From: a virus
IMG/VR virus record: IMGVR_UViG_3300027659_000233
Coordinates: 1-22,312 of that record
Reading direction: 5' to 3' (one strand)
Length of the DNA stretch: 22,312 bases
The translations under genes were made by a program, and so were the position numbers. Below, piece after piece: positions 12,229 through 18,890 of this stretch; the first letter of the stretch is position 1, and every line of letters begins with the position of its first letter. The notes under the pieces are model-generated. The model was given only the letters and a program-made list of their open reading frames with translations. It made no database searches and was not told the DNA's origin.

Positions 12229-12758
12229 GAGTGAATACACGTAAAGGTATGCCAACAGTAAAGCAACTCGTTTCAAGGCATTATGATTGGCTTGAAAAGC
12301 ATTTTGAAGGTTGGTTTGATGATTGGCAGCTAAAAGACTGCAATTACAATATGTCGAAATTATATGCAGAAACTTGTTGGGCATGTAAATTGGGATTCCC
12401 TGTTCATGTATCTTTTTATAGAGCGCATATACTTCCAATCTGGAAAGGTGGCAGCAATGATTATACAAATTTGCATCTGTTGTGTGATGAATGCCATAAA
12501 GAATCCGAATATTTGGATGGTGAACCATATTGGCATTGGTTCAATGATAGGCCTAACCATCCTTCAGTAACTTTTGAAAGACGTCTGAAAGAAGCCGCAA
12601 GGATTCAAAAAGAATATGAGAGTGGCAATTTCAAAGCAATCCCAGAAGATGTTTTACCTAAACTTCATCAGTTATATGACGAGCATCGCATACAAGAAAG
12701 GTATAATAAAAATTATGCAAAATATTACGACGTTTTCAATCCAGTGAAAGGCATGTAA
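12225..12758 (+). CDS. HNH endonuclease
   Basis: 177 residues. C-W-A-C (51-54) and C-D-E-C (87-90) form the zinc-binding pairs around the beta-beta-alpha metal core: R-A-H (66-68) carries the first histidine, with N-D-Y-T-N-L (78-83) and H91 after the second pair. The rest is basic and helical. AT content is clearly higher than in the flanking nuclease gene (many TTT, AAT, GAA codons), suggesting separate acquisition, as expected of a free-standing homing-type HNH gene. It could also be a replication or recombination nuclease. No intron boundaries seen. Starts in an ATGA overlap. Confidence 0.8.
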   Translation: MRVNTRKGMPTVKQLVSRHYDWLEKHFEGWFDDWQLKDCNYNMSKLYAETCWACKLGFPVHVSFYRAHILPIWKGGSNDYTNLHLLCDECHKESEYLDGEPYWHWFNDRPNHPSVTFERRLKEAARIQKEYESGNFKAIPEDVLPKLHQLYDEHRIQERYNKNYAKYYDVFNPVKGM

Positions 12759-12814
12759 TGATGAAACCCATCTCGATACCACCCGAAACTACATCATTCA
12801 AAAAAGGAGTCAGC

Positions 12815-13102
12815 ATGAGTGAGCAACTACGTAGAGAGCGTATTAAAGTAGAGCGCTCTGCAATTAAAGAAGTAGGAAGTGACGAGCCGCCAAAAAGAGG
12901 CAGACCGCCAAAGGCAAAGCCTGAAGGCATACAGGTAGTCAAAGTCAAAAAACCTATGGGCAGACCAAAGAAGATCAGAGAAGCCTTTGAGCCGGATCAC
13001 GTGACCAAACTCGTATCAACTATTCTTGATATGAATTTTGACCCAAGCCAAAAGCTCATGTTCATCGATGCTATCATCACAAAGCACAAGGAGGCTAAAT
13101 GA
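12815..13102 (+). CDS. basic protein with two AT-hook-like motifs
   Basis: 95 residues from ATG 12815, chosen because AAAAAAGGAG lies 5 bases upstream; an in-frame ATG at 12758 (overlapping the previous stop) would add 19 residues. Two G-R-P cores in basic contexts (P-P-K-R-G-R-P-P-K and P-M-G-R-P-K-K) resemble AT-hooks, which insert into the minor groove of AT-rich DNA. The C-terminal half is helical. A role in binding AT-rich DNA near replication genes is plausible; the AT-rich gap at 16700 is a possible target. Overlaps the next gene in ATGA. Confidence 0.6.
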   Translation: MSEQLRRERIKVERSAIKEVGSDEPPKRGRPPKAKPEGIQVVKVKKPMGRPKKIREAFEPDHVTKLVSTILDMNFDPSQKLMFIDAIITKHKEAK

Positions 13103-13527
13103 CAAGCGAATTTGAGACAAGGCAATACCGCCCAAAGATAACAGAGATGAAAGGCGATATTAACAAAGGTTCAGGTTGGTTTTTACGCAGAGCAGAGGGT
13201 GTGGCATTTAATAAGCCACACCTTCTGATGCCAAGCCTCGAGAAAGAGATTCTTAAACATTATCCGACCTTACTTGACTTCTCATACAAGGTACGACATC
13301 AAGAGGTAATTCAAGCAAAGAGAATCTTTATCTTTTTTTGCATGACATACTTCAAACTGACAAGCAAGTTTGTTGCTAACTATTTGAACCTCGAACGCTC
13401 AACCTTGTCACATCATTGCCATGTAATTTTGAACGAGCTTGATATTTATCCCCAAACACAGCAAATTGCATTTAAGATAGATCAATACCTTTACAAACGG
13501 AGCGAGGATGAAGCACTACGAGATTGA
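13099..13527 (+). CDS. stand-alone DnaA domain IV-like DNA-binding protein
   Basis: 142 residues, behind AAGGAGG. Residues about 70-112 follow the domain IV pattern of DnaA: a helix (Q-A-K-R-I-F-I-F-F-C-M-T-Y-F), a serine/threonine helix (L-T-S-K-F-V-A-N-Y-L-N), then E-R-S-T-L-S-H-H-C-H-V-I, which lines up with the D-H-S-T-V-I-H-A-C-R-K-I recognition signature of DnaA. There is no AAA+ ATPase domain, so it could bind DnaA-box-like sites without initiating alone. It may mark the phage origin, recruit the host initiator or act as a regulator. The match is by eye. Confidence 0.65.
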   Translation: MTSEFETRQYRPKITEMKGDINKGSGWFLRRAEGVAFNKPHLLMPSLEKEILKHYPTLLDFSYKVRHQEVIQAKRIFIFFCMTYFKLTSKFVANYLNLERSTLSHHCHVILNELDIYPQTQQIAFKIDQYLYKRSEDEALRD

Positions 13528-13711
13528 ATTACAACGCCCGGCAAGATCTGGTGCAATCAAAATAAACCTAAACAATTATGACCTTGCCGAGGGTATAGAC
13601 TTTGTGCTTGAGACTCCAACGCTGGTCAAGATCACTTCGCACTATGGCAAGAGAGCATACGATCAATGGAAGGATACATCACTCATAATTGAAAGGACAG
13701 ATGAAGCATGA
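13508..13711 (+). CDS. small hypothetical protein
   Basis: 67 residues, ATG 13508 behind GGAGCGAGG, overlapping the preceding gene by 20 bases. Mixed strands and helices (H-Y-E-I-E-L-Q-R-P-A-R-S-G-A-I-K-I-N-L and G-K-R-A-Y-D-Q-W-K). No motif recognised. Ends in an ATGA overlap with the next gene, so both are co-translated. Function unknown. Confidence 0.55.
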   Translation: MKHYEIELQRPARSGAIKINLNNYDLAEGIDFVLETPTLVKITSHYGKRAYDQWKDTSLIIERTDEA

Positions 13712-13959
13712 AATGGACTAAACTTAAATACGGCAAATGGCCTAAAGGCATGATACTTGTACGGCTCGAAGCTGAAGAAGGCGATGTGCATTATGAGATA
13801 GGCTACATTCAAAGAAATTTAAAGACCGGTGACTGGATTTTGTACTGCAATAAGCCAATGCCAGGCATGATAAACATGGACTCTATTTACGACATCGAAC
13901 CGCACTACATTCAACTCGACCATATCGAAATGCCGGAGGTAGACGATGAACAACTATGA
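13708..13959 (+). CDS. small acidic beta-rich protein
   Basis: 83 residues, predicted beta-rich (M-I-L-V-R-L-E-A-E-E-G-D-V-H-Y-E-I-G-Y-I), with an acidic C-terminus (M-P-E-V-D-D-E-Q-L). It could be a small SH3/OB-like fold or a protein-interaction module, but no family is identified. It starts in an ATGA overlap behind AAAGGACAG and overlaps the next start by 14 bases. Confidence 0.55.
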   Translation: MKWTKLKYGKWPKGMILVRLEAEEGDVHYEIGYIQRNLKTGDWILYCNKPMPGMINMDSIYDIEPHYIQLDHIEMPEVDDEQL

Positions 13960-14170
13960 CAAGCAAAGCCTTGATGAGCTTGCACAATCTTTCACAAATA
14001 TCGGGCAAACATTATGCGCATTCAAGCAATCGGTCATATCTATGACCTCGCAGCTGACTCGAATCGCAACCCGCTTGAGACACTTCCCCTCTCTCAACAG
14101 CTCAAGATCGAAAGAGAGATCCTCTTCGGTCAAAGGCCAAAAAAGCCACGCGGAAGAGTCAAAAGATTAA
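13946..14170 (+). CDS. small protein overlapping the second DnaA-like gene
   Basis: 74 residues. ATG 13946 has an excellent ribosome site (GGAGG, 6 bases upstream), so initiation here is likely. The first ~45 residues (N-N-Y-D-K-Q-S-L-D-E-L-A-Q-S-F-T-N-I-G-Q) look like a real helical protein; the last ~30 are Ser/Arg/Lys-rich and lie over the neighbouring gene in another frame. It overlaps the gene at 14014 by 157 bases. It may be a genuine short protein, a leader that couples translation to 14014, or the front half of a -1 frameshift product. Confidence 0.45.
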   Translation: MNNYDKQSLDELAQSFTNIGQTLCAFKQSVISMTSQLTRIATRLRHFPSLNSSRSKERSSSVKGQKSHAEESKD

Positions 14171-14463
14171 CACCAGTAGAGCTCTATGAGATCGCCGAGC
14201 GCGCGGCTGACATAACAGCCCGCGCTTATGGCATCGACATCACAGCTATCTATCAACAGCAAAGCTTTGCACGATACGTTGCAATCACTCTTTGCTACTT
14301 GCACAATGGCTTTACTAAACAAGACTGCAGTTTTATGTTTAATTGCGGACATAAATTGCCTATCATTGCAGCCCGCGTTGTTGAAGACCGCGCAATAATT
14401 GATCCAGACTTTAGAACACTATACCGACATCTTATACAGGAGAGTAAGCAGCATGGCGCATGA
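14014..14463 (+). CDS. second stand-alone DnaA domain IV-like protein
   Basis: 149 residues. A basic linker (R-P-K-K-P-R-G-R-V-K-R, 41-51) precedes a helical domain (about 53-141) with the DnaA domain IV order: I-T-A-R-A-Y-G-I-D-I, S-F-A-R-Y-V-A-I-T-L-C-Y-L, G-F-T-K-Q-D-C-S-F-M-F and G-H-K-L-P-I-I-A-A-R-V-V. The last element aligns with the H-S-T-V recognition region but is less conserved than in the 13099 protein. Again no ATPase domain. The ribosome site is poor (CGGGC), so translation is probably coupled to the overlapping 13946 gene. It overlaps the primase-helicase start by 11 bases. Confidence 0.6.
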   Translation: MRIQAIGHIYDLAADSNRNPLETLPLSQQLKIEREILFGQRPKKPRGRVKRLTPVELYEIAERAADITARAYGIDITAIYQQQSFARYVAITLCYLHNGFTKQDCSFMFNCGHKLPIIAARVVEDRAIIDPDFRTLYRHLIQESKQHGA

Positions 14464-16699
14464 GATAACAATGTTTGCAAATGCCGAAGCGAAAGTACCG
14501 GAGGATCACTTTGACTTTGACCGATACCTTAACTGCATTTTAGATGGTAAATGGGAGGATATTGTGCATGAATATCGCAATATCAAAGACCCAGAGACAA
14601 AAAAAGCCTTCAAAAAGAAAATACCAGCCTTTACACCATCCGGAAAGTTCGATGGGAGAGGTGTTGCAGGCATGGTCAAGCATAACGGGTTCATTTGCAT
14701 GGATATTGACGATAAAGATAATGTCAATATGAGCCCAAAAATCGAAAGACTCAAAGAAGATCCTCACGTGTATGCTCTGCATCAGTCCGTAGGAGGTTTT
14801 GGCTATGCTGTATACTTCAGAATTGAGTCTGATAAGCACAAAGAAGCCTTTGAGGCACTCGAAGAGTACCTAATGAACAATTATTTTCTTATATCCGACA
14901 CTTCATGCAAGGATAAAAGCCGTTTACGCTTCGTTTCTTACGATCCTAACCTTTACAAGAACGAAAACGCTCAAATATTTCGCAAATACAAGAAAAAAAA
15001 GGAAAAATACACCTCAAATACAGTCATTGTGCATACTGAAAGCGATATGGACTTTGTTATTCAGCAAATCAATGAACGAGGTATCGATTTGACCGATAAT
15101 TACAATGACTGGTATCGGATTGGCTTTGCTTTGGCCTCTGAATACGGTGAAAGAGGTCGAGACTACTATCATGCTATAAGCAGAATGCATGAAGAGTACT
15201 CTGTGCAGTCTTGCGATAAGAAATATGACAACTTTTTGAAGAACGCAACAGGCAAAATTGGTATAGGGACGTTCTTTCAGAAGTGCAAGGAGGCCGGTGT
15301 TCAAGTTCAGACCGAAAAAACACGGAAATGGGAAGTTGTAACTACAAATATGATAACAAAAAGCAACCTTAAACCTGAAGCAATCCTTGAAAATATCGAA
15401 AAACTTGCCGAAGCCGATGGCGATGATCCCAAACATGCAGATGAAGTAGCTAAACAGGTCTTGGAAATACCTATTGACCAGCTCAAAAAGACCAAAGATG
15501 ATAATATTATCCCTCTTATCAAGCTTCGCCTTGCAGAATATGAGCTAAAACGCAATGACGTGACTCACGAGATTGAATATAACGGCAAACCAATCACAGA
15601 TACCGACATCAACTCAATTTGGGCTGAATTGGCAACCGATCTCGGCACCAAATGCACAAAAAACTATATCCATGACCTCATCGGAAGCAACTTTACCAAG
15701 TCGTACAACCCCTTTCTTGACTTCTTTGAGGCAAACAAAGATCGCGAAATGACCAGAGGGCATATCCAAAGGCTCATAAATGCAATAAAGATAGCTCCAA
15801 TCTACACTGTTGAGGATGGCAAAACAATCGAAGTCAGTGAACAATTCAAACATGGCCTCGTAAGCAAGTGGATAATCAGCCTCATAGCTTCGATGCATGG
15901 CACGTACTCACTCTTGATCCTTGTTTTGTGCGGTCATCAAGGTATTGGCAAGACAAACTTCTTTAGATGGCTCTTACCAGCCGAGCTCCGAGACTATTAC
16001 GGCGAATCAAAGCTTGACCGAGGCAAAGATGACGAGATCTTGATGTGCCGTAAGCTCATCTTATGCGATGATGAGTTCTCCGGCAAGTCAAAAAACGAAT
16101 ACAAACTACTCAAGCAGTATGCTTCTACGCAGTTTTTTAACCTTCGCCAGCCCTATGGCCGCAAATTTGAAGACTTTAGACGTTATGCCGTGCTTTGTGG
16201 CACGTCAAATGAGAACGAAGTCATCAACGATCCAACCGGCAACCGCAGGATTATACCAATGAACGTCCTTGACATTGACTTTACCGAGTACAATAATGTG
16301 GATAAAACAGCTTTGCTCTTGGAAGCCTATGCAATCTGGAAGGCGCAAGGCGATAGCTCATGGCAACTAAACAGCCGAGATATTAACACCCTTGAGCAAT
16401 ATACTACGGCAAATAAGCAAGTGGACTCAATGGAAGAAGCAGTCAATATGTTTTTCACCATCCCAACCGAAGGCGAAGTCTTCGCAAAAGGTGAAAATGT
16501 TAAGTTCTGGTCAACAACTGAAGTCCAAGTGCATATCGAAGCAAACACCAAACTGAAAGTCTATCCTAATCGACTCGGGATGGCTCTGCAGAACCTCGGA
16601 TATGTCCAATTGAACCGCAGAGAAGATGGTAAATCGAAAAAAGGTTACTGGATAAAGCTTACCGGACACACGCTTTTCGGCAATAATTCACTGTATTAG
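14453..16699 (+). CDS. VapE-type primase-helicase
   Basis: 748 residues from ATG 14453, chosen for AGGAGA upstream; an in-frame ATG at 14399 lies inside the previous gene. Order: VirE_N / BT4734-like domain (about 30-195) with F-I-C-M-D-I-D-D-K-D near 80 and S-R-L-R-F-V-S-Y-D-P; a PriCT-2 region (about 200-285) with W-Y-R-I-G-F-A-L-A; and a VapE helicase domain with Walker A G-H-Q-G-I-G-K-T-N near 493, Walker B K-L-I-L-C-D-D-E-F near 535, and C-G-T-S-N-E-N-E sensor. It should unwind and prime phage DNA. This layout is common in Bacteroidota mobile elements. Followed by the AT-rich gap. Confidence 0.9.
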   Translation: MAHEITMFANAEAKVPEDHFDFDRYLNCILDGKWEDIVHEYRNIKDPETKKAFKKKIPAFTPSGKFDGRGVAGMVKHNGFICMDIDDKDNVNMSPKIERLKEDPHVYALHQSVGGFGYAVYFRIESDKHKEAFEALEEYLMNNYFLISDTSCKDKSRLRFVSYDPNLYKNENAQIFRKYKKKKEKYTSNTVIVHTESDMDFVIQQINERGIDLTDNYNDWYRIGFALASEYGERGRDYYHAISRMHEEYSVQSCDKKYDNFLKNATGKIGIGTFFQKCKEAGVQVQTEKTRKWEVVTTNMITKSNLKPEAILENIEKLAEADGDDPKHADEVAKQVLEIPIDQLKKTKDDNIIPLIKLRLAEYELKRNDVTHEIEYNGKPITDTDINSIWAELATDLGTKCTKNYIHDLIGSNFTKSYNPFLDFFEANKDREMTRGHIQRLINAIKIAPIYTVEDGKTIEVSEQFKHGLVSKWIISLIASMHGTYSLLILVLCGHQGIGKTNFFRWLLPAELRDYYGESKLDRGKDDEILMCRKLILCDDEFSGKSKNEYKLLKQYASTQFFNLRQPYGRKFEDFRRYAVLCGTSNENEVINDPTGNRRIIPMNVLDIDFTEYNNVDKTALLLEAYAIWKAQGDSSWQLNSRDINTLEQYTTANKQVDSMEEAVNMFFTIPTEGEVFAKGENVKFWSTTEVQVHIEANTKLKVYPNRLGMALQNLGYVQLNRREDGKSKKGYWIKLTGHTLFGNNSLY
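16297..16305 (-). promoter_or_regulatory. perfect DnaA-box match (minus strand)
   Basis: TGTGGATAA, the reverse complement of the consensus DnaA box TTATCCACA, inside the primase-helicase gene. A second exact match lies at 18315. About 0.2 exact matches are expected by chance in a window of this size on both strands, so two are mildly notable, though both lie in coding sequence. Confidence 0.3.
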
Positions 16700-16880
16700 T
16701 CATAATAAGGGTGTGTCGGGTAGAAGGTAAAAAAACACACTTTTATAGGCTATAGAAAAATAATTACATGCATGTGTTATGTCTACTATCTATAGTAAAT
16801 ATAAATATATTTAAGTTAAAATATTACTATTTACTATATACAGTATAGCCCAAACCCTTGATTTTCAAAAACTTACGGTG
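16700..16880. other. AT-rich noncoding gap, possible origin or regulatory region
   Basis: The only long noncoding gap inside the early gene run, and markedly AT-rich between 16741 and 16845. It holds short palindromes (TATAGGCTATA at 16744-16754, ACATGCATGT at 16766-16775), an 11-bp inverted repeat (16791-16838) and an imperfect direct repeat at its edges. A weak hairpin GTGTGT/ACACAC (16711-16716 with 16735-16740) followed by TTTTA could end the upstream mRNA. No TAnnTTTG promoter found. Its position between two helicase genes fits an unwinding element or origin, but this is inference. Confidence 0.4.
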
Positions 16881-16892
16881 TGTCAAGTAAAA
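16710..16892 (+). repeat. imperfect direct repeat flanking the AT-rich gap
   Basis: GGTGTGTCGGGTAGAA (16710-16725) and GGTGTGTCAAGTAAAA (16877-16892) match at 13 of 16 positions; all three differences are G to A. Each copy contains a GTG followed by codons V-S-G-R-R-stop or V-S-S-K-N, so the left copy could be a broken duplicate of the helicase leader. The two copies bracket 151 bases of AT-rich DNA. Confidence 0.5.
16791..16838. repeat. 11-bp perfect inverted repeat in AT-rich gap
   Basis: TATAGTAAATA (16791-16801) and TATTTACTATA (16828-16838), separated by 26 AT-rich bases. Could be a dyad for an origin-binding or regulatory protein, or an unstable cruciform typical of duplex-unwinding regions. 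The AT-hook-like and DnaA-IV-like proteins in this window are possible ligands (speculative). Confidence 0.6.
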
Positions 16893-16934
16893 ATGGCTAC
16901 TTGGAGCACTACTTTCTTACTGGATACGCTATGA
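16893..16934 (+). CDS. possible 13-residue leader peptide before the helicase
   Basis: ATG 16893 opens M-A-T-W-S-T-T-F-L-L-D-T-L and its TGA overlaps the helicase ATG at 16931 in an ATGA. The helicase has only a weak ribosome site, so coupling from this mini-ORF is a possible way to start it. Against it: the mini-ORF has no Shine-Dalgarno itself, and a longer in-frame helicase start (GTG 16880) would run over it. Confidence 0.25.
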   Translation: MATWSTTFLLDTL

Positions 16935-18349
16935 ACTTGAGACCCTACCAAGCCAATGCAATTGACAAACTACGAGCCGCTTTTGGGCAAGGCCATAAGC
17001 GAGTGATCTTGTGCGCTCCGACCGGTGCGGGAAAAACGGTGATGTTCTCCGCTATCGCTCATGGTGCTATGCAAAAGGGCAAACGAGTGATGATCCTGAC
17101 TGACCGAGGCGAACTGCTATGGCAAGCAGGCGGCGCGCTCAATAACCTTGCCATTGTCCCGGAACTCATCACGGCCGAGACTACGCGGCTGAACCATAGC
17201 CAGCGAATCTTTGTAGCCATGATAGAGACGCTTTACCGCCGAAGAGAGCAACGTGAGTACAAGTCACTACTTGAGAGCGTGGATTTATTCATCTTTGATG
17301 AGTGCCATAAGCGGACCTTTGACAAGCTCATCACTTCCCTACCGGCTGATGCCTTGATCCTTGGCGCAACGGCTACCCCTTGGAGGGAGGGGAAGGGGAC
17401 AAGCTTGAGAGACATCTACACTGCTATGGTGGAAGCCGCAACCATACCGAGCCTAATCCATGATGGCTACCTTGCCAAGCCCTCGTACTTTAGCGTACCG
17501 ATTGACTTGAGCGAGGTCAAGACCAAGGGCGGCGATTATGATCCGGACTCACTTGCCGATATGTACAGCCGTTCTCAAATTTACAAGGGCGTAGTGACCA
17601 ACTACAAGCGATGGGCAAATGAGAGCAAGGCGATTGTATTCGCACCTAACTTGCAAAGCGCTGCCGAGGTATTGCACGAGTTCAAGTCTGCAGACTTGCC
17701 CGCTTTGGCATTAGACGGGTCTGCGGGGCTCGTAGAGAGGCGAAACGCTTTGAAGTGGTATAAAGAGACCAACGGCGCTATTTTGATCAATGTAGGGCTT
17801 TTTACTACGGGCTTTGATGAGCCGAGTATAGAGACTGTGATTTTGTATAGAGCAACCAAGTCCCTACCCTTATTTTTGCAGATGATCGGGCGGGGTTCAA
17901 GAACATGCGAGGGAAAGACCGAGTTCAAGGTCCTGGACTTTGGCAATAACCTTTACCGCTTCGGCATGTGGGATGAAGATCGGGACTGGTCAAAGCCACC
18001 GAAGAAGCCAAAGAACGGGCTACCGATTTACAAGAATTGCCCGGGCTGTAATGCGTTTCTTTACGCCTCTGCAAGGGTTTGTTCACATTGTGGACAAGTT
18101 ATCCCAAAGACCGAGGCTGAAGTTCTGCAAGAGCTTGCTATATTGCAACCGCATGAGGCTCGTGCTATGGCAAAGCTCGGAGGCTTGCAAGATTGGATCA
18201 TGCTGACAAAGGCGGGTAAACTTCACCCGCTCTATGTTCTGCAAAGTTTGTGTAAATTGCGAAGCGAAGCGGAGAAGTATAGAGATGCAATGGGATATGC
18301 CAAAGGCTGGCTATTTATCCACAAAGACAAGACGAGGCATTTACTTTGA
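16931..18349 (+). CDS. SF2 DEAD/DEAH-box helicase with zinc ribbon
   Basis: 472 residues from ATG 16931; the protein then begins at the Q-motif-like L-R-P-Y-Q. GTG 16880 in frame would add 17 residues. Motif I A-P-T-G-A-G-K-T (about 28-35), motif II D-E-C-H near 122, motif III G-A-T-A-T-P near 144, and motif VI Q-M-I-G-R-G-S-R-T near 317 define an SF2 helicase of the RecG/UvrB-like 'restriction-helicase' layout. A C-terminal zinc ribbon follows (C-P-G-C ... C-S-H-C, about 371-396). It likely remodels forks or recombination intermediates next to the primase-helicase and nucleases. GC content is higher than in the gap before it. Confidence 0.9.
   Translation: MNLRPYQANAIDKLRAAFGQGHKRVILCAPTGAGKTVMFSAIAHGAMQKGKRVMILTDRGELLWQAGGALNNLAIVPELITAETTRLNHSQRIFVAMIETLYRRREQREYKSLLESVDLFIFDECHKRTFDKLITSLPADALILGATATPWREGKGTSLRDIYTAMVEAATIPSLIHDGYLAKPSYFSVPIDLSEVKTKGGDYDPDSLADMYSRSQIYKGVVTNYKRWANESKAIVFAPNLQSAAEVLHEFKSADLPALALDGSAGLVERRNALKWYKETNGAILINVGLFTTGFDEPSIETVILYRATKSLPLFLQMIGRGSRTCEGKTEFKVLDFGNNLYRFGMWDEDRDWSKPPKKPKNGLPIYKNCPGCNAFLYASARVCSHCGQVIPKTEAEVLQELAILQPHEARAMAKLGGLQDWIMLTKAGKLHPLYVLQSLCKLRSEAEKYRDAMGYAKGWLFIHKDKTRHLL
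18315..18323 (+). promoter_or_regulatory. perfect DnaA-box match (plus strand)
   Basis: TTATCCACA, exact DnaA-box consensus, near the 3' end of the SF2 helicase gene. An inverted pair of degenerate copies lies at 18089-18107 (TGTGGACAA, one mismatch, and TTATCCCAA, two mismatches). Coding constraint could explain them; the presence of DnaA-IV-like proteins makes them worth noting. Confidence 0.3.
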
Positions 18350-18513
18350 ACTATCGCCAGGTCTCTCAAGACTTTATAGATGACATAGTGATGGAGCATG
18401 GTGTGAGCTACGATACGGCTCGCGTGCTCTTCATGGTGTGGCTGATTGGCATGAAGCACTGGGAGTCTAAATGCGATGGAATGGTTGAGTATATTTTAGG
18501 AGAAGAAAGATGA
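18346..18513 (+). CDS. small protein with TTG start
   Basis: 55 residues from TTG 18346, which overlaps the helicase stop, with GAGG about 8 bases upstream. Its TGA overlaps the ATG of the next gene (ATGA at 18510), the spacing rule used throughout this operon, which argues it is real. The sequence is helical (S-Q-D-F-I-D-D-I-V-M-E-H-G-V-S-Y-D-T-A-R-V-L-F-M-V), with a V-S-Y-D-T-A-like turn suggesting a small three-helix fold. Easily missed because of the rare start. Function unknown. Confidence 0.6.
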   Translation: MNYRQVSQDFIDDIVMEHGVSYDTARVLFMVWLIGMKHWESKCDGMVEYILGEER

Positions 18514-18890
18514 TTGAAGTATCAGCTAATACGAAGGAAGCTCTACATAGGTTAAGCCTTCGCTATGGGTTTAGGATCAGTGATATTATTGACATGGCTT
18601 TGGTTGGTTGGGAGATCAGGATGGAAGCAATGGACATTCCAGACCATAACATCAAAGAGATTATCCTTGCAAGATGGGATGAGTTCATAGACTCTACATC
18701 ACCAATCCTGCAGTTTGCATTGAATACAGTTGAGCCGGAAATAGAAGGCAATAGGCTTATTATCAATACGGGGCTTAACTTTGTACACGATCAATTGCAA
18801 CAAAACATGCCGGCATTGAAGAAAGCCTTTGGCTGTTTCTATGGAATGGATATAGAGATCGAAGTCAGAGTAGTAGTGCAGTATGGCTGA
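18510..18890 (+). CDS. protein with a DnaX/DnaA-N-like C-terminal domain
   Basis: 126 residues, ATG 18510 behind AGGAGAAG. The first ~45 residues resemble a short ribbon-helix-helix-like segment (S-A-N-T-K-E-A-L-H-R-L-S-L-R-Y-G). Residues about 55-123 follow the pattern of the C-terminal KH-like domain of clamp-loader subunit DnaX (tau) or domain I of DnaA: R-W-D-E-F-I, L-N-T-V-E-P-E-I-E-G-N-R-L-I-I-N, a long helix, then D-I-E-I-E-V-R-V-V-V. If right it may mimic or bind host replication proteins. By-eye fold match only. Overlaps the next gene by eight bases. Confidence 0.45.
   Translation: MIEVSANTKEALHRLSLRYGFRISDIIDMALVGWEIRMEAMDIPDHNIKEIILARWDEFIDSTSPILQFALNTVEPEIEGNRLIINTGLNFVHDQLQQNMPALKKAFGCFYGMDIEIEVRVVVQYG

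Follow-up and report, generated by a model that had tools for sequence, protein, structure and literature searches.

Known stand-alone DnaA domain IV proteins and origins 3' of primase-helicase genes

DnaA domain IV without an AAA+ part is already known from: (i) GafY (HdaB) of Caulobacter, a stand-alone domain like the two proteins described here, P1 and P2 (PMC9632790, PMC11150451), (ii) GafA of the Rhodobacter GTA, in which the N-terminal part is a fused domain IV, and (iii) gp40 of Cellulophaga phage phi46:1, a stand-alone DnaA_C protein, annotated as a putative DnaA protein, that is matched by the phage DnaA-IV profile A5 and occurs alongside a related primase-helicase. The phi46:1 protein illustrates how readily a stand-alone DnaA-IV protein is labeled 'DnaA' and taken for a replication protein. 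GafY contacts RpoD and acts with IHF as a transcriptional activator, and GafY and GafZ jointly activate the GTA cluster of Caulobacter (PMC9632790, PMC11150451).

Origins located 3' of a primase-helicase or replication gene are described for P4 alpha and the pri-rep-ori of PICIs. PICI origins have two sets of iterons that flank an AT-rich region (PMC6092414), and the winged-helix domain of P4 alpha binds the repeats of its own origin (PMC4234260).

The locus compared here with these systems lies in a 22.3-kb viral record (22,312 nucleotides), the whole of which is termed the window. Compared to GafY, the window encodes two paralogues, one of them degenerate, next to a primase-helicase and with no sigma-like partner. 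The phi46:1 gp40 differs from P1 and P2 in being a single copy downstream of helicase and VRR-NUC genes, and its neighbor gp41 is not the sigma-like protein found in relatives of the window. The candidate origin of the window is, as in P4 and the PICIs, 3' of the primase-helicase, where relatives of the window clearly have two iteron sets flanking an AT-rich region (PMC6092414, PMC4234260). The window differs from P4 and the PICIs in its BT4734-like/PriCT_2/VapE domain set, in the phages having structural genes of their own rather than being satellites, and in a primase-helicase C-terminus and origin that, in the wider family, appear to be swapped jointly, as a cassette. New are the pair of paralogues in which one member is without the DNA-reading residues, the finding that DnaA-IV genes of relatives are linked to a gene for a sigma-like protein, and the exchange of iterons in step with the C-terminus of the primase-helicase.

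Gene order of the window and its relatives

The features of the window are listed in Table 1, and related viral contigs and loci used in the comparison are given L-numbers. The window is probably from a phage with a Bacteroidota host, since related primases occur in named phages of Nonlabens, Cellulophaga and Flavobacterium. A P2 profile found no relative among 84,980 species genomes; thus, the host assignment runs through these named phages.

Table 1. Coordinates of the features surrounding the primase-helicase gene of the window.
Feature	Coordinates	Strand	Description
P3	12758..13102	+	114 aa, basic, AT-hook-like; N-terminal SEQLRRER; overlaps start of P1
P1	13099..13527	+	142 aa; predicted stand-alone DnaA domain IV-like protein; R66 = E. 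coli R399
Conserved small gene (P1-P2 interval)	13708..13959	+	MKWTKL.YG.WP.GMIL
P2	14014..14463	+	149 aa; N-terminal LSQQLKIER helix, then predicted DnaA domain IV fold (residues ~52-149)
Primase-helicase	14453..16699	+	BT4734-like N-terminus, PriCT_2, VapE-like (Pfam); PHROG DNA primase, E=8e-146
Candidate replication origin	16700..16930	.	AT-rich core (~16755-16850) between GGACACAC/GGTGTGTC repeats
DEAD/ResIII helicase	16931..18349	+	Pfam ResIII, E=2e-26

The P1 and P2 genes, first called from the sequence of the window, are real: the open reading frames are present, orthologues occur in the same order ahead of the primase-helicase in other viral contigs (L002/L003, L004/L005, L006, L012, L013 and L014), and codon changes in the informative pairs compared are those of purifying selection (dN/dS ~0.04-0.25). 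The initial annotation placed both genes just before the primase-helicase, which is correct for P2, whereas P1 is upstream of P2 by ~0.5 kb, an interval that contains two small open reading frames. One of the genes in this interval (13708..13959) is kept at this position in L005 and L006 as well. For the primase-helicase and the DEAD/ResIII helicase, the start codons in Table 1 are those that agree with relatives: the primase-helicase frame opens at a TTG (14399), while the ATG at 14453 is the better match, and the DEAD/ResIII helicase frame, listed from a GTG at 16880, has its ATG (MNLRPYQ) at 16931.

In relatives, the P3-like gene and P1 are separated by helicase and methyltransferase genes that are missing from the window. 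Downstream of the DEAD/ResIII helicase, positions 18510-18890 of the window encode a 126-aa protein that resembles the PolC-type DNA polymerase III N-terminus II (27.0 bits versus a Pfam cut-off of 26.3). The GC skew of the window changes from near zero to +0.2 around the gap 3' of the primase-helicase (from ~17000 onward).

Fold and family of P1 and P2

By profile and model comparison, P1 and P2 are paralogues, each a single-domain protein of the DnaA domain IV type, and it is almost certain that each is a stand-alone domain IV fold. The initial annotation had proposed this resemblance from the order of the helices, and structure prediction bears it out for both proteins, with AlphaFold2 models that have the six-helix fold in common with DnaA domain IV (PF08299; 1j1v, 3pvp). 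The P1 model (pLDDT 82.5) matches 3pvp at Z 12.8 (rmsd 1.9 over 95) and 1j1v at Z 12.6, with the next unrelated chain at Z 5.5. The P2 model (pLDDT 78.1), for which the input was P2-type sequences alone, matches 3pvp and 1j1v at Z 14.5 (rmsd 1.8 over 91), with the next unrelated chain at Z 5.4. Unlike DnaA, the two proteins are without the AAA+ part, as had been noted: at their lengths (Table 1), neither has an AAA match in Pfam.

Both proteins fall under the Pfam gathering cut-off of Bac_DnaA_C (PF08299; 31.5 bits). In a search against this family, proposed in the initial annotation as a check, P1 has a weak match (E=0.0024, 18.3 bits) and the P2 of the window has none; the L012 orthologue of P2 is matched (E=6e-4) over profile positions 2-55, which do not cover the recognition helix. 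A P2-family profile, built without any other family, has DnaA chains as its only matches in the PDB (E=0.002). A profile of six P1 orthologues finds nothing in the PDB; thus, the link of P1 to DnaA comes from its fold, its weak Pfam match and the wider family of related proteins. P1 is connected to this wider family by hhalign (E=1e-5) and by an iterated search of 87 loci, which joined it to many small DnaA_C proteins near primases of 39-44% identity. The DnaA_C cut-off is passed in 22 of 35 related viral records, and a combined profile that includes such clear members matches DnaA chains of the PDB at E=1e-12. Direct profile comparison of P1 to P2 is weak (probability 15%), and the two are linked via the wider family. 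Neither protein was matched by tblastn in 50,697 named phage records or has a family in PHROGs.

DNA-reading residues and DnaA boxes

The base-specific contacts of E. coli DnaA are made by residues 399, 423, 432-435 and 438-439 (PMC5043019). The stretch E-R-S-T-L-S-H-H-C-H-V-I, pointed out early on as the counterpart of the DnaA signature, is present in P1 as residues 99-110. In the HMMER register, P1 R66 is the equivalent of the minor-groove arginine R399 and is invariant in six P1 orthologues, while D433, H434, T435, T436 and H439 align to E99, R100, S101, T102 and H105. The equivalents of R399, T436 and H439 are kept. The recognition helix (E99-R-S-T-L-S-H-H106) has the signature D-H-[ST]-T-V-x-H in part only (E-R-S-T-L-S-H), and the major-groove readers are altered: H434 is replaced by R, position 433 is E, D, H or N, and P423 is also changed. 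Because P1 keeps the arginine while its readers are altered, it is expected to bind DNA, probably at a sequence other than the DnaA box. P1 would be the DNA-binding member of the pair, using the minor-groove arginine and a DnaA-type recognition helix at a non-DnaA-box site. The analysis identified no target site for P1.

In P2, the position of the signature reads G-H-K-L-P-I-I and the STV motif is absent. In the profile alignment to DnaA, the R399 loop is shortened by 5 residues and has no equivalent of the arginine, and the pI of the domain is 6.45 compared to 8.96 in P1. With arginine loop and signature lost and a domain that is not basic, P2 more likely acts through protein contacts than by binding DNA, and it may represent a domain in which the fold was kept as DNA reading was lost.

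Reading of the DnaA box TTATCCACA by P1 or P2, as first envisaged, is not supported, given the altered base readers of P1, their loss in P2 and the distribution of the boxes. One-mismatch boxes number 26 in the window versus 24 expected, as by chance. Two exact boxes (0.19 expected) are at 16297-16305 (-) and 18315-18323 (+), 2 kb apart and flanking the origin gap, inside coding sequence, and are not retained in most relatives. A clustering of DnaA boxes was rejected, as the one-mismatch boxes are at chance level and the exact pair is neither clustered nor conserved. The base readers also bear on a take-over of the host, in which P1 (or P2) would bind host DnaA or its boxes and block or redirect host initiation. 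The predicted domain IV fold is compatible with such a role, and the first report on HdaB (GafY), as cited in PMC9632790, described an effect of its overexpression on chromosome replication; however, P1 has altered residues at the positions that read the DnaA box and P2 has lost them, and the replication effect of GafY is ascribed by the authors to GTA production (PMC9632790). A host take-over is judged improbable.

The candidate origin and its probable reader

The gap between the primase-helicase and the DEAD/ResIII helicase looks like an origin of the P4/PICI type. Primase and helicase are joined in one protein in the window, with the candidate origin immediately 3', and the gap is of similar length in all phages of the window's subgroup. 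In relatives, the gap has repeated 7-8-mers around an AT-rich core that are absent or nearly absent in the rest of the locus. These iterons vary by phage (TGACAAC, TTACTAC, CGACTACC, TGACTAC, TGACTAT and TAACCAC); for example, TGACAAC occurs in seven copies in the gap of L012 and in none elsewhere in that locus. The GGACACAC/GGTGTGTC repeats of the window (16664-16671, 16710-16717 and 16877-16884) are few in number and no more frequent than in shuffled sequence; thus, the origin assignment for the window is drawn from position and from relatives.

The initial annotation proposed that P1 and P2 may bind a phage origin in the gap at 16700-16880. This gap does resemble an origin, while P1 and P2 as its readers are not supported, as in the wider family of related phages the iterons track the primase C-terminus. 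In the wider family, pairs with DnaA-IV proteins of 99-100% identity have different iterons and primase-helicase C-termini that are 48-50% identical, while the primases are 79-94% identical outside the C-terminus. In L051/L059, L042/L061 and L036/L058, the DnaA-IV proteins are 100% identical, the N-terminal parts of the primases 93-95% and the C-termini 48-49%. Nucleotide identity is 83-97% over most of the primase gene, falls to ~60% over its last 300 bases and is still low in the gap; other local dips exist, such as one inside the helicase gene. Changes of iteron type number at least 16 on the DnaA-IV tree versus 7 on the tree of the primase C-terminus.

Since DnaA-IV proteins are identical while iterons differ, the DnaA-IV protein does not determine iteron type in the wider family. 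The co-variation of iterons with the primase C-terminus makes it likely that the primase-helicase is the iteron reader, and the reading part is likely its C-terminal ~100 aa. The C-terminus adjoins the gap, so the two could also be exchanged jointly by linkage, without mutual binding. The coupled change was seen in the wider family, outside the window's subgroup, and in that family C-terminus and iterons appear to represent a natural exchange of origin specificity, as a cassette. The C-terminus would bind the iterons 3' of its own gene and the enzyme would load itself, as in P4 and the PICIs. Such natural swaps provide ready-made pairs for studying origin recognition in VapE-type replicons.

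An initiator role of P1, in which P1 would read the repeats of the gap, has in its favor the gene order beside the origin and the divergence of P1, which is faster than that of P2 and the primase between subgroup phages with different repeats (64% versus 73-87%). It is very unlikely given the identical DnaA-IV proteins that accompany different iterons in the wider family, where the primase C-terminus co-varies instead.

A possible regulatory or replication-accessory role

A role of P1 and P2 as regulators similar to GafY is tentatively favored, its chance put a little short of even. The argument comes from the wider family, in which the DnaA-IV gene is followed by a gene for a sigma-like protein, an arrangement likened to that of gafY and gafZ. 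Of the 52 wider-family loci that extend 4.5 kb or more past the primase, 48 have both genes and 4 have neither, many of these loci being closely related and, thus, not 52 independent events. The terminase is a few genes after the pair. The sigma-like proteins are ~190 aa (e.g., L016:11721-12287 and L066:8756-9331) and have a weak resemblance to ECF sigma factors (best E ~0.02-0.2), with no relative in the PDB by sequence. Separately, gp33 of Nonlabens phage P12024S, which occupies a similar place, is annotated with a Sigma-70 region 2. The parallel to GafY-GafZ suggests a regulator role, in which P1 and P2 would bring RNA polymerase or factors of the phage itself to phage promoters. The GafY-GafZ arrangement may, thus, have phage counterparts in another phylum, which would bear on the origin of GTA regulators.

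The subgroup of the window counts against this reading. P1 and P2 are in the replication operon there, not before the terminase, and a search that detected its positive controls found no sigma-like partner in the window or in any of its close relatives. This gene order would suit a replication-accessory role, with P1 and P2 bound near the origin or the primase-helicase, docking via a shared motif, LSxQLRxER, and assisting in the opening of the AT-rich core or the recruitment of the helicases. P1 and P2 are always directly ahead of the primase-helicase and origin in the subgroup, the motif is common to P2, P3 and the relatives of P1, and the six subgroup origins share a non-iteron block near AACTTA. 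By contrast, the wider-family DnaA-IV genes are ~2-3 kb from the origin beside the sigma-like gene, a DnaA-IV gene is missing from four relatives whose origin is of this kind, and in the wider family iteron type does not follow the DnaA-IV protein. An accessory role is considered less probable than a regulatory one.

A shared N-terminal motif

The LSxQLRxER stretch is 20-31 residues from the start of P2, P3 and the longer orthologues of P1. P1 of the window is without it, while P3, which overlaps the start of P1, has it. A regular-expression search of all open reading frames of the retrieved loci places 20 of 24 matches in the P1, P2 and P3 gene families, with carriers at 12758-13102 and 14014-14463 of the window, L005:4126-4674 and L012:2497-2805. 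For the regulators favored above, this helix of P2, P3 and the relatives of P1 might serve as a shared docking element, which is a guess. The proteins of L005:4126-4674 and L006:4137-4703 have an N-terminus in common with P2 (GS.Y.HVAD...LS..L..ER..LFG); as a third DnaA-IV paralogue they found no support, the C-terminal part not being assignable to DnaA-IV. P3 has a weak AT-hook match in Pfam and a pI of 10.1. A complex of P1, P2 and this AT-hook protein, tied together by LSxQLRxER, could couple phage transcription to initiation at the cassette-exchanged origin, although the odds of such a complex are low.
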